The notes under the pieces: model-generated
Database searches by the model: none
Told to the model about the DNA's origin: nothing
Seen by the model: the letters and a program-made list of their open reading frames with translations, nothing else
Origin: Tubulanus polymorphus
Taxonomy: Eukaryota > Nemertea > Palaeonemertea > Tubulaniformes > Tubulanidae
Direction: 5' to 3'
Assembly: GCF_964204645.1 (NCBI RefSeq)
Contig: NC_134031.1
Coordinates: 7,226,001 to 7,290,000, forward strand
DNA length: 64,000 bases
Position numbers and translations under genes: made by a program
Part shown: piece after piece, positions 14,090 through 31,650 of the stretch
Layout: the number at the start of each line of letters is the position of its first letter
Numbering within the stretch: position 1 is the first letter of the stretch

Positions 14090-14870
14090 AGAGACTATCG
14101 GTAAGCTGTGACTAGATTTGTATATTAATTCATTGAAGAGATTTCTCTTGTAGAACCTTTTAGATAGTGACATGATATGCCTGTATTACTGATTCGGCAA
14201 AAACCGTATTTTGGTTAAAGAACTTTTTCTGAAATTCACGGGTGTAAACATCCACCATTTTGACCGAATAATCCGATTTAATTATCATTTCTATTTCTGC
14301 CCGCCGATTCTGATATAGTTATACATCCCTTACTATTACAATACGTCTTCTCATGATATTCAATGCAATATATCATTTCGACGTTCAAATAGTGCTCATT
14401 ATATAATCACAGGAAGCCATTCTACATCTTTGTCAATAATATTTTGCCAAGTAGCTTGTATGTGTACACATAGACCTGTGACGTTTTGCACATCGATTTA
14501 CAGTTGTCGTTTGTAAAATGACGCTGAATGTTTAACATTGTTTAGGTTTCATAATGGTAACGTTTTATAAGATGTCAAAAAATGTTTCATTTACAAGGTG
14601 ATCTTAAGTCGTCACTTTTTCATGAATTGGCTTCCCCCTGGTGGCCACATAGAAAATCATGAGACCTTGAAACTTTGCACAGGGGCTAAGCATTACACCA
14701 ATTACATATCTGCAACACATTTTCATTATCAAATCTGCTTCATTTAGAAGTCTATCCGACATCATCTATTCCATGTATTAAGCATCCATGAAAACAAATA
14801 TGACTGCCAGTCGGCCATCTTGGATCCAATTACAAAATAAAATGTACACGCACAACTACATATCCAGTCA
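14090..14870. other. No gene seen
   Basis: Non-coding AT-rich sequence. CCCCCTGGTGGCCACATAGA near 14636, followed by GAGACCTTGAAACT, is a degenerate relative of the 155-bp repeat unit. No exon is supported. Confidence 0.35.
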
Positions 14871-15545
14871 AACAAATGTATAAATCTACAAGGAGAGAGC
14901 CAGTAGTTAAGGAGTAGATCTCCGGACAAGATTGTGTCCACAAATGGACAACCTGACCCCAGTATACCACCCCTACACTTCATTGAGGGGTGTATAATGA
15001 AGTGAAATAAATTCATACGTGTTATGAAATACTCAATAATGTGTCGTTTAGGGGCACAATATTAGTAATTCTTACTCTCCTTTTGATTTTAGGCTCACAA
15101 AACACAACTTAGTGAGAACCAGCATGACAAGTAATCCTGCAGCTTGCGTCTAGGGATTACTCGAAGAATTTACCAGCTGGATGGAGGAAAGCGCTTCCAG
15201 AATACAATCAAGAGTGGATTGCAAATGCTCTTTTTCATGAAGAAAAGTCGCCAATGGATCCGAGTAAAGACATGCAGCTGTGGTGGTACTCGCAGCAACC
15301 AATGCCGTCAGCCACCAAGTTGCCTACCATGAAGCATTATTTTGGACATTGTTCATTCCGATGGATGCCTTGGCGTCTCTGGCGTGTGAAATTAGTCTGC
15401 CCATACAAAAGTTGTCCAGGAAGACATAGAGAGTTGATGGCTGCAGGAATATAACAGAAAATACGTCGAGTCTTGGATATAGACATGTTTTACTTAATTG
15501 CTTCTGAGAACTTGGAATGCTTCTGGTATGTTTCCTTCCTTAATA
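14870..15545 (+). mobile_element. DUF6729-type element, N-terminal segment (copy 1, broken)
   Basis: After an acceptor-like TTTGATTTTAG (about 15092), one frame from about 15169 reads NLPAGWRKALPEYNQEWIA, DMQLWWYSQQP, FRWMPWRLWRVKLVCPYKSC and RRVLDIDMFYLIASENLEC. The CPYKSC pair and the WMP-RLW block match what I know as the DUF6729 domain, found in multicopy proteins of fish and marine invertebrates. An in-frame TAA replaces the Tyr codon that the second copy at 19.4-19.7 kb keeps. The frame is interrupted at about 15545 by a non-LTR RT fragment. The element's function is unknown; the copy number and context suggest a transposon. Confidence 0.7.
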
Positions 15546-16095
15546 ACCAAAAATAGAGGGTTACTATCAACAGGGCCTCGTCGGACTGGGAAACTGTCAC
15601 CAGTGGTGTACCCCAAGGAAGTGTACTCAGCCCTACCTTATTCTTAATACATATATCAATGATTTACCAGAAAGTTTTACCTCCGATATGCTGATGTTTG
15701 CTGATGACTCAAGATTGTACAGGGGAATGAAAAACCATTACGATCATGACATTTTCCAGGAAGACATTAACATAACAACTGAATGGTCCGAGACTTGGCT
15801 AATGCCTTTCAACAACTCCAATTGAAAAACCTTACATCTCGGCAGCAAAAACATCAAACAACAGTAAGATGAGAAAATTAAACTTTGACAGTCACATCCA
15901 AAACTGTGTGAATAAAGCCAGATCTATGACTGGACTCATAAAAAAAACCATTCATTATAACCACTATCTTCATATTACCTATCCAAATCATTATTAGACC
16001 TCACGTTGAGTACACTTCAGTTGTTAGGAACCCTTCAACTATTAAAAACATCAAAATTTTGGAATCAGTACAAAGAAAAGCACCAAAATGGTCCC
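15545..16095 (+). mobile_element. Non-LTR retrotransposon RT fragment (CR1/L2/Jockey-like), copy 1
   Basis: Across several frames the plus strand encodes VTSGVPQGSVLSPTLF, a LINDLPESF-like stretch, then MLMFADDSRLYRGMKN with the FADD catalytic box, and near the end ILESVQRKAPK, the usual thumb motif. The copy has many frameshifts and stops. A second copy at 19.76-20.1 kb has the same flank on its left side. Confidence 0.85.
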
Positions 16096-28520: not shown

Positions 28521-31500
28521 GGAAATGTGATTGTTGTAGCGACAACGTCATGGTGAAAGCTGTAGAGCCATGGACTCAATTGAATGTCAGACTCGATATT
28601 TGGCATTTTATGCGAAGATTCGCCAGCGGTTTGCACGACTGATGCACATCGGCTGTACAGTACCTTTTTAAGAAATGTAAGTCGATGTATTTTCAAGTGG
28701 GACCCCGTGGACCTTCAAAATTTGAAAAAAGCTAAGTCCGAAATGCTCGCTAGCCAGGGAGTTTCTGGGCTTAGTGAAAAACCGCTGATGCAGAGTATTT
28801 CCAAACAGGAGTTAGCTCTTCACTGTAAACATACTACCAGCGGTACTGAAGAAGCTCCTTCGTCAATTAATCGCGTCGATGTCCGGAGATGCTGGAAAAG
28901 ATACTCTCGGTGTTCCGCTGTTTAATCGTGAAAAGATGGCAGAGATCTGGGATAAACAAAGACGGCACATTGCGTGCATTCAAGACCCACCTGGTGTTGA
29001 ACTCTACACGCAGACTGGCACATCCAAAAAAGGGAATAGTCTGTTACCTACGTATCGATGTGCCCGAGGTACTACTTCACTTGAGTCGTTTCATATCCAC
29101 CTAAATCGATTTATCCCAGGTAAATAGTTTGATAATCAGTCTGTACTAAGAAAGATAATTTTTGTTAGGTGATGAAATTTAGCTAGGTCAAATTTGTAAA
29201 TATGGGTTTTTGCTTGATATATTTTCAGGAACTGTAGCTAACGATGCAAGCTACCAGGCTTACCCGGTTGATGGATTGTCACGCTGGAACGAGGACCGGG
29301 CTGTCGATGCCGTTTCCAGAAATCGTGAGGTGTATTCGTACAGTGGCTATCTCCGTCAACACATCAATGAGCTAAGCTCAAAAGTTCCCCATCATACCAA
29401 GCACCCCTCAAGTACACTGGAGAACTGATCGGGATTGAGTATCTGTATAATCTGACTAGAAAGGTCCCCAGTGACTATAGATCACTGCTTAATGAGGAGG
29501 CTGCTGAGGATCTGGACGACACCCCTGAGGAAGCTAGCACTGATACAGTTGACAAAGGCATTGTTTTGGAGCAAACCTTCGATGAAACTATTACTTTACC
29601 AGGGGATGGAGATATAGAAGATGATTTATTATGTAAGTTACCAATACAAAGTAGTAATTTGATCATAATACTAACTAATTTGTTTCTTCTGAAGATCTGG
29701 CTTGATATATCTATTATCAGTTATGCTTATAGCTATGCATGAGCCTGTCATTCATGGTATTTTTGGTGATGTAGAAATTTTACTTATTTACAGTTTCACT
29801 CAGTTCATCAAAATCGTCCAACGATGCCGATACTCGCCCTTCAACGATGGAAGTTACTGATATCAGCACTATGAATATCCATCCTGTAATTACAGATGAA
29901 CTCGGGGATACTTATGTGCCCAACCCTACAGTAACCGATAAATCTTGAGTGTTACCTCCGTTAACAAGTTGCTTGGATGAACAGGTAAGTTCTCACCAAC
30001 AAATTGATTTTAATTGATAAAATGACCCATAATAGTGTAATAGTTAGCAAAGCTATATTGGTGATTACAATTCTTGTTTAAAGTTATTTTATAGCAGTCT
30101 GCTGGACCAGATGGGACAACCAGTTTTGGTCACGTTGTTGCTCGTTTGATAATGGTCAGGCAATATGCAACCAAGGTGCAGACGATGTCATCCGACTATG
30201 GAATGAATTTCCCGATTTTGACAAGACACCGATTGTCTTCCCTAAGCGACATCGGGAGAGGCTTATTAAAGGAAGATTTAAAGCGAAAAAGGAAAGAAAT
30301 GTTGCTCCTGGTGTTGAGAGTTCCCAACGGTAAGTTTTTTTGTAGCAATGATCAATTTTAACCATGTGTGACCATAATAATTGATATTTCGTGTAAAGAT
30401 CTTTCTCCGTTACCAACACAAATTTGGCTACACTAATCTTAATAAAAATGCCTGCAAAATTCATTTACAGGCAAGTTTATTTTGCATGACAATTATGTAT
30501 GAATTTCATTTTGTACGGCATTTTTAGGACCCAATGGTGCGCCAGCTCAGTTTCCTGATTGTAAAAGATATGTGGAAGTTGTAAAGAAACTGGCTATGAT
30601 TCATCGCTCATCGAGGAGAAATGAGCATGGCGTGTCGATGAACCGCTGGTCGTGGATTGGTAGATCTTACCAAACGATGCGGACTACCGTTTTGAATTGT
30701 GATAGGGTGATGGCCAACACTAAACGGCAACTGCCTGCGTTGAACCAAACTACGATCTCTCAATGGTATGTTTTGTTTTATCTGTGATGATATTTCGCTC
30801 ATATTGCACAAAAAACTTAGACCATTGATGATTTCTAATTTTTCAGGTTTACAAAATACTCCAAAAAACAGGAAGGGAAAGTCTTGCTTCAGGGAATACG
30901 TTTGCCTGAACCCTTGTTAGCAAGCACAACTGAGCAAATTTCTGCACGACAAAGACCAGAATCGTTTGCCGTATCCGCAAGGGGTGAACGTCACGCATTC
31001 ACCTCTCCACCAAATACTGCTGGAACATCAAAGTTTAAGGGTCGTCGCTGTGCTACCGCAACTGTGACTTAACACGATTTAGCTGTAACTAGGACAAATA
31101 CGAGAATCGATTCTACAGCGGTGTCCGATAGTAGTTACACTATGTCAAATATTAGTGTCTTACAGTCAACTCAAACAGCTACTGTGAAGCCTGGCACTGC
31201 CGACGACCATTCACTGCCTTCAGCGTTCATAAGGCATGAAACAGGAGAAAACAGTCGACGCAATTTTGTGCCCATCTTACCTTTCGTTCTTCCACCTTCG
31301 TATGTACCGTCGATACGCGAACAGATACGCGTTCCGTACAAAACACAGTCGATACCGGTCGGTCAAGAACAAATACGCGTTCTGTACAAAACACAGTGGA
31401 ATAGAGCGAAGCGCAAAAAAAGAGGAGGAAGGCGGTGTAAAACATAGGAAGTATGTGCGAACGAAAGCCATACCAACCTGCCCTCATTGTAAAAGAAATC

Positions 31501-31650
31501 GGATTCCCCCTTCACACCAGCAGTTCCACAGCTATCAGTATTGTGGGGAAACAAATGAAAAGACATTTGACGATTGGAAAGATGAACTTAGGAGGAAAGG
31601 GGTACCGAAGAAAAAGTGCGACAACTAGCTGCTATATTTTTAAATATTGC
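28520..31650 (+). mobile_element. DUF6729-type element, copy B: central exons and the most complete 3' half
   Basis: Exon 1 (to 29119) encodes VRLDIWHFMRRFASG, IFKWDPVDLQNLKKAK, then with a frame change WDKQRRHIACIQDPPGVEL and ARGTTSLESFHIHLNRFIPG. Exon 2 (29229-29632) reads ANDASYQAYPVDGLSRW; a deletion near 29385 shifts its frame. Later exons are about 29793-29948; 30095-30330 (DDVIRLWNEFPDFDKTPIVF, then GVESSQR); 30528-30765 (RWSWIGRSYQTMRTTVLN, LNQTTISQW); and 30847-31620, whose end reads PTCPHCKRNRIPPSHQQF, YQYCGETNEKTFDDW, a zinc-ribbon-like C-x2-C...C arrangement. The same order is familiar from multicopy DUF6729-containing proteins of fish and marine invertebrates. The 5' end is missing at the Helitron junction. 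No terminal repeats were recognised. Confidence 0.7.

Follow-up and report, generated by a model that had tools for sequence, protein, structure and literature searches.

Decayed copies of a Dada DNA transposon at tRNA-Met genes of Tubulanus polymorphus and a predicted twister-P1-like ribozyme in their relatives

A 64,000-nucleotide stretch of Tubulanus polymorphus DNA (contig NC_134031.1, positions 7,226,001 to 7,290,000 of the forward strand; here called the window) contains repeated fragments of a multi-exon gene that includes a DUF6729 domain. The fragments belong to two insertions, A and B, and are almost certainly decayed copies of the Dada superfamily of DNA transposons, from a lineage that inserts at nucleotides 8-13 of tRNA-Met genes, in the A box of RNA polymerase III (Pol III). 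Relatives elsewhere in the same genome carry in addition a predicted self-cleaving ribozyme of the twister-P1 type. An initial annotation, made from the sequence alone, had described at least five fragments of one gene family between 14870 and 31650 and had proposed that they represent a mobile, possibly undescribed transposon lineage. Positions given without a contig are window positions, all features of the two insertions and the tRNA genes are on the forward strand, and other contigs are referred to by handles such as C9.

The two insertions in the window

Insertion A (14876-23793) is a decayed Dada copy that is partly duplicated in tandem within itself; a piggyBac relic lies between the parts of the copy. 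Its first unit starts with the 5′ part of the Dada gene (14876..15866; Pfam, tblastn and DNA comparison), in which the Pfam search identifies DUF6729 (PF20499) at 15182-15451 with an E value of 6.5e-19. The transposase core is located at 17527..18343 with the motifs LDIWHFMRR (containing DxxH) and TSLESFH in broken frames, followed by the post-core exons at 18439..19104 (tblastn and DNA comparison for both); at 19104 the B-like sequence stops. The piggyBac relic (DDE_Tnp_1_7, PF13843; 16215..17013; Pfam E values 2.2e-27 and 3.1e-9) is foreign to Dada. The second unit opens with a repeat of 14876-15866 (19124..20052, 85-90% identical), which reveals the internal tandem duplication, and continues with a core fragment (22109..22666; tblastn and DNA comparison). 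DNA comparison gave a second matching pair, 17527-17764 being found again at 22441-22666 with 76% identity. A tail fragment (23599..23793) is 80% identical at the DNA level to a sister copy on contig C9.

Insertion B (28529-32474) is a 5′-truncated copy whose right end lies inside a tRNA-Met gene, and it thus runs on beyond the limit of 31650 that had been assigned to the family. It consists of a core fragment with LDIWHFMRR and ARGTTSLESFH (28529..29124; tblastn), the remaining exons up to a C-terminal zinc ribbon (CPHC...H...C; 29219..31616; translation and tblastn), and the 3′ untranslated region with the right end, which closes with AGAACTTT (31617..32474). Where they overlap, A and B are 85-87% identical in the DNA comparison.

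When the exons of a well-preserved relative in this genome were compared one by one with the window (tblastn), the window pieces matched with E values of 5e-5 to 4e-74. The N-terminal pieces are found at 15182-15520 and 19348-19685, the core at 17528-18343, 22109-22576 and 28529-29124, and further exons extend to 31616. Together with the Pfam match this confirms that the repeated gene fragments are real, exceed what chance would give and lie where they had been placed; they resolve into two insertions, one of them internally duplicated, and not into five elements. The introns had been said to be shared between copies; the intron after RFIPGK indeed occupies the same position in A (approximately 18339-18448), in B (approximately 29120-29228) and in the relative.

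The right end of B is flanked by the 3′ part of a tRNA-Met gene from nucleotide 8 onward (32475..32539), which starts with the target-site sequence TGGCGC. An intact tRNA-Met(CAT) gene at 33660..33731 is the uninterrupted counterpart of this target; gene and 3′ flank are 96.5% identical to the interrupted one over 226 bp. This tRNA-Met is probably the initiator tRNA. When the window was scanned for the 13 bases that open the target tRNA gene, with up to two mismatches allowed, the intact gene alone was found. With the Rfam tRNA model the interrupted gene scores 26.6 bits and that of the C9 sister copy 24.9 bits, both below the cut-off of 29, as expected because the first seven bases are missing.

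Two blocks of approximately 1.2 kb each align between B and the sister copy at C9:6.33 Mb, with identities of 92.6% and 91.4%. Both copies have the same junction, AGAACTTT followed directly by TGGCGCAGTGG, and their similarity ends at 32539, the end of the tRNA gene, beyond which the flanks diverge. Since the same tRNA base is used in different tRNA-Met genes, B is not a segmental duplicate of the C9 sister. Two members of the window family have thus integrated into separate tRNA-Met genes, in each case at nucleotides 8-13. The initial annotation had named copies without common ends, all explained by duplication, as the outcome that would speak against mobility; instead, two copies end at the same tRNA-Met base.

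In the 3′ region of B, the sequence GGGATTCGAACC, a Pol III B box, is present on the minus strand without mismatch (32345-32356). With up to two mismatches it occurs in four of the five Dada 3′ tails examined and is lacking in C4b; shuffled tails reach the same count in 1-5% of cases each, and the motif was chosen after looking.

Full-length relatives and assignment to Dada

A genome-wide search for DUF6729 gave at least 36 matches. The relative is an element of 8,253 bp, from TAGCGGGCGC to GTAGAAGTTT, of which five full-length copies, 99.37-99.98% identical over approximately 8.26 kb, are present at four unrelated sites: C6, C11, C8:14.09 Mb and C8:13.36 Mb, the last being a head-to-tail pair. 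A sixth copy on C19 is partial and two copies on C10 have internal deletions. Altogether, end probes identified 10 left and 7 right ends in the genome. These near-identical copies with common ends bear out the proposal that the element is mobile; the view of it as DNA-borne and intron-bearing, with a DDE-type core, is supported as well.

Several of the copies lie at small RNA genes or tRNA-like sequence. Joining the flanks of the C8:14.09 Mb copy restores a complete tRNA-Met according to ARAGORN. The C11 copy lies inside a 5S rRNA array with 19 Rfam 5S matches in 20 kb, of which one is at the junction. The C8:13.36 Mb pair is preceded by GCCCGGC+TAGCTC, the 13 bases with which a tRNA-Lys(CTT) gene on C12 begins; the same sequence has a second genome match on C37 that is not called as a tRNA. 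Exact 6-bp duplications flank the C6 copy (TGGCGC) and the first copy of the pair (TAGCTC). The C8:14.09 Mb copy has TGGCGC/TAGCGC with one mismatch, and the second copy of the pair has TAGCTC/TGGCG followed by N. TGGCGC is found at most 16 bases from the left end in 8 of the 10 left ends, which resembles the carried-over flank described in the Dada papers (PMC3706591, PMC8869645).

The ends themselves show some further features. Self-comparison detected no terminal inverted repeats at the termini of the 8.25-kb element. In its left end, element positions 29-49 and 74-94 form a perfect inverted repeat of 21 bp (L009:7127-7192), a palindrome that is kept in all 10 left ends, and TTCAGGAAA forms a subterminal repeat that lies 29 bp inside the left end and 28 bp inside the right one. 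Two further candidate targets are not supported: the left flank of C6 agrees with a U1 gene in just 11 bases and the right flank disagrees, and a tRNA-Ser gene in the right flank of a C10 deletion copy has no Rfam support. Searches of viral and genome contig collections gave pattern matches, and no relative outside this genome was obtained by tblastn.

The core of the relative contains D198, D266, D290xxH293 and E455, for which a catalytic role is predicted. The spacing is 68 residues between the two aspartates and 189 between D and E; in the published Dada description, D567 and D635 of Dada-U6_DR are likewise 68 apart, with a D-E distance of 176 (PMC3706591/PMC8869645). The window core retains LDIWHFMRR and TSLESFH. 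Inspection of the translations by eye revealed an N-terminal zinc finger, C-x4-C followed by C-x2-C across an intron, and a C-terminal one, C-x2-C-x8-H-x8-C, in the tail, which is also present at 31480-31550. DUF6729 and the downstream exons stand in the published Dada order. Pfam gave no transposase match above the cut-off for the core; MULE (PF10551) matched one member at residues 83-145 with 15.2 bits (cut-off 27.6, E 0.029), and phmmer against solved structures returned nothing up to an E value of 10. The core probably adopts an RNase H-like fold, to judge from the published assignment, the motif spacing and the single MULE match below the cut-off.

The Dada assignment is carried by the gene content and motifs, the conserved introns, the two insertions at the same tRNA base and the recently moved relatives in Pol III genes. 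Insertion into small RNA genes is seen at tRNA-Met, in the 5S array, at the right ends of B and its sister in tRNA-Met genes, and at the tRNA-Lys-like 13-base left flank. The published Dada features are present except that exact duplications are confined to a minority of copies; the name is given from the published description. Several observations do not fit this picture as well. Among seven two-ended copies of the relative two have exact target duplications, one has a duplication with one mismatch, one is obscured by N and three (the C11 copy and both C10 copies) have none. Two of the three joined empty sites, C6 and C11, yielded no tRNA with ARAGORN, C11 being the 5S site. Both window insertions lack their left ends, and at several further ends of relatives no RNA gene was identified.

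It is very improbable that the elements represent an undescribed transposon superfamily. Pfam names just DUF6729 in these proteins, and a full-text literature search for that name came back empty: no publication that connects DUF6729 with Dada was found. However, the size, the introns, the DDE spacing, DxxH, the CCCC and CCHC fingers, the lack of terminal inverted repeats and the A-box target TGGCGC/TAGCTC are those of published Dada elements, and the lineage is therefore not new in the sense first suggested. Also very improbable is a host gene family spread via segmental and tandem duplication: the tandem duplication in A is genuine and several fragments are clustered at C11:4.45-4.48 Mb, yet near-identical 8.26-kb copies share their ends between unrelated flanks, the same junction occurs at two tRNA-Met genes with different outer flanks, and the common ends refute such duplication for the relative and for insertion B.

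For the Dada elements, a spliced transposase with a DDE core would recognise multicopy RNA genes by their A-box region, and the element would then be inserted there by cut-and-paste, leaving a 6-bp duplication in some cases and none in others. As the targets are multicopy, the damage would be tolerable. The assignment ties an anonymous DUF6729 to a site-specific transposase, and many copies thereby become annotatable.

The window contains additional sequences. A fragment with the motif FADDSRLY, which reads like part of a reverse transcriptase, lies in both units of A (15605-15780 and 19802-19972) and has no Pfam match; being common to both units it entered before the duplication. An open frame at 20566-20928 has weak C2H2/FCS zinc-finger matches in Pfam, with a best E value of 5.8e-4, below the cut-off, and 21112-21411 is repeated at 22719-23018 with 92% identity. 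A tandem unit of 152-154 bp forms two arrays with similar consensus (806-1382 and 23863-24177), and a perfect (CCTA)n array with 20.5 copies is located at 40792-40873.

A twister-P1-like motif in the relatives

The 8.25-kb element matches the twister-P1 ribozyme model of Rfam (RF03160) with 53.6 bits and an E value of 1.1e-9, and two more divergent Dada copies match with 60.8 and 54.4 bits. A genome-wide search with E values up to 0.01, in which 62 of 9,949 candidates were scored, gave at least 11 matches with E values of 4e-13 to 1e-3; a further match on C9 (38.9 bits) is outside those listed. By position, all 11 listed matches lie inside Dada copies and on the transposase strand. Dada copies make up, as a rough estimate, 0.15 of 268 Mb, so that the confinement of the matches to them is not due to chance. 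Seven belong to the 8.25-kb family, where the motif precedes the right end by 259-261 bp at all seven right ends; the other four follow coding fragments at C9:11.30 Mb and C11:4.46, 4.47 and 4.48 Mb.

The 8.25-kb family and the C9 copy are 56.0% identical over 91 core residues (44% differ), and when the 3′ regions of the families were compared by blastn, conservation was found mainly in the twister (E 3e-8 to 7e-5), in addition to weak low-complexity matches. The best copies keep the twister-P1 core residues, four helices and both pseudoknots. In the 8.25-kb element the motif follows the last open frame, which ends at approximately 7051, and precedes the sole AATAAA downstream of that frame (8081); it would thus sit in the 3′ untranslated region of the transposase. 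In two other copies an AATAAA is also found before the twister, which in these copies may be located downstream of the poly(A) site. One Dada 3′ region contains two twister-like stretches about 190 bp apart (L022:6448-6503 and 6694-6755), the weaker one without part of the core. The twister model RF02684 had no match; RF03154 had none either, and as the same search is silent in control genomes too, this result is uninformative.

An unlikely alternative is that the block is a conserved binding site for the transposase, or another DNA site, and no ribozyme. Its closeness to the right end, with a distance that is constant in the 8.25-kb family, would suit such a site, and 10 of 11 matches lie under the Rfam cut-off. 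The covariation is also mixed, since two of five measures fall within the shuffles (pairs changed on both sides, 29/500; further pair types, 112/500), and single-sequence folding gives the full helix pattern clearly in two of four variants. Against a DNA site stands that a twister covariance model finds these blocks in a search of the whole genome at the E values given above. In seven distinct sequences 95.3% of 149 cells are paired, compared with 44-60% in slid controls, and 15 cells show changes on both sides, compared with a shuffled mean of 5.8 and a count this high in none of 500 shuffles. Changes on both sides affect 6 of 23 pairs (1-3 in slid controls), one of them in a pseudoknot, where C-G is replaced in step by U-A, a compensatory change.

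We lean slightly towards the view that a self-cleaving twister is a built-in, ancestral part of Dada DNA transposons that would cut the transposase or read-through transcript approximately 260 nt before the right end. Two observations count against the ribozyme reading. First, a single match of the 11 reaches the gathering cut-off of 67.2 bits (C11:4461775); the other ten score 34.3-60.8 bits with E values of 3e-11 to 1e-3. Second, the window family has no twister by Rfam up to an E value of 3, the 3′ untranslated region of B included, and two right ends of this family are kept. The best window match of a custom twister model (12.6 bits, E 0.084) falls within a coding exon, in an unrelated position. 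The copies at C4:8.97 Mb and C4:18.71 Mb also lack the motif, which means little as their 3′ ends seem truncated. The window family is 73.6% identical to the 8.25-kb family over 91 residues, and the C9 copy 56.0%; as the window family is thus the nearer one, loss of the twister is the simpler reading.

Most likely, the twister would cut the RNA of the transposase, or read-through RNA, at a point after the coding region and before the downstream RNA gene. Whether the motif precedes or follows the poly(A) site, cleavage would part the transposase RNA from the downstream sequence, and might limit expression or trim read-through. The freed 3′ RNA, which would extend across the right end and the adjoining target gene, could possibly act itself in regulation or in the choice of targets, by analogy with right-end RNAs of some bacterial elements. 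If active, the motif would be a self-cleaving RNA that regularly belongs to a DNA transposon of the cut-and-paste type, and the function of twister, whose biological role is described as largely speculative (PMC5408937), could be tested in a concrete setting.

Comparison with known systems

Among the elements in the Dada descriptions (PMC3706591, Kojima & Jurka 2013; PMC8869645, Kojima 2022), the closest are the tRNA A-box lineages Dada-tK, -tY, -tN, -tR and -tS. Published Dada elements are 4.7-11 kb long, contain introns and produce target duplications of 6-7 bp. Shared features are a spliced DDE transposase with DxxH, two zinc fingers and no terminal inverted repeats, and the 6-bp target TGGCGC or TAGCTC at tRNA nucleotides 8-13. 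Tandem insertions, occasionally replaced or missing duplications, and 5S rRNA and tRNA-Met targets are also common to both. With its tRNA-Met, tRNA-Lys-like and 5S sites the 8.25-kb family is less strict than most Dada families described there.

Unlike the Dada elements in these descriptions, the relatives bear a twister-P1-like motif near the right end. No published twister in Dada or another DNA transposon was found in the literature searched, which omits most subscription papers, and the predicted self-cleaving ribozyme appears to be new as far as this literature shows. A passage of PMC7761336 mentions twister in mobile elements for RTE retrotransposons, and DNA transposons are not named in it. 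Retrotransposons with hepatitis delta virus-like ribozymes, R2 among them, and retrozymes with hammerheads are likewise mobile elements with a self-cleaving ribozyme inside, and R2 likewise targets a multicopy RNA gene. All of these, however, belong to the retroelements and carry their ribozyme at the 5′ end or in the long terminal repeats, whereas here the putative ribozyme is located on the 3′ side of a DDE DNA transposon.

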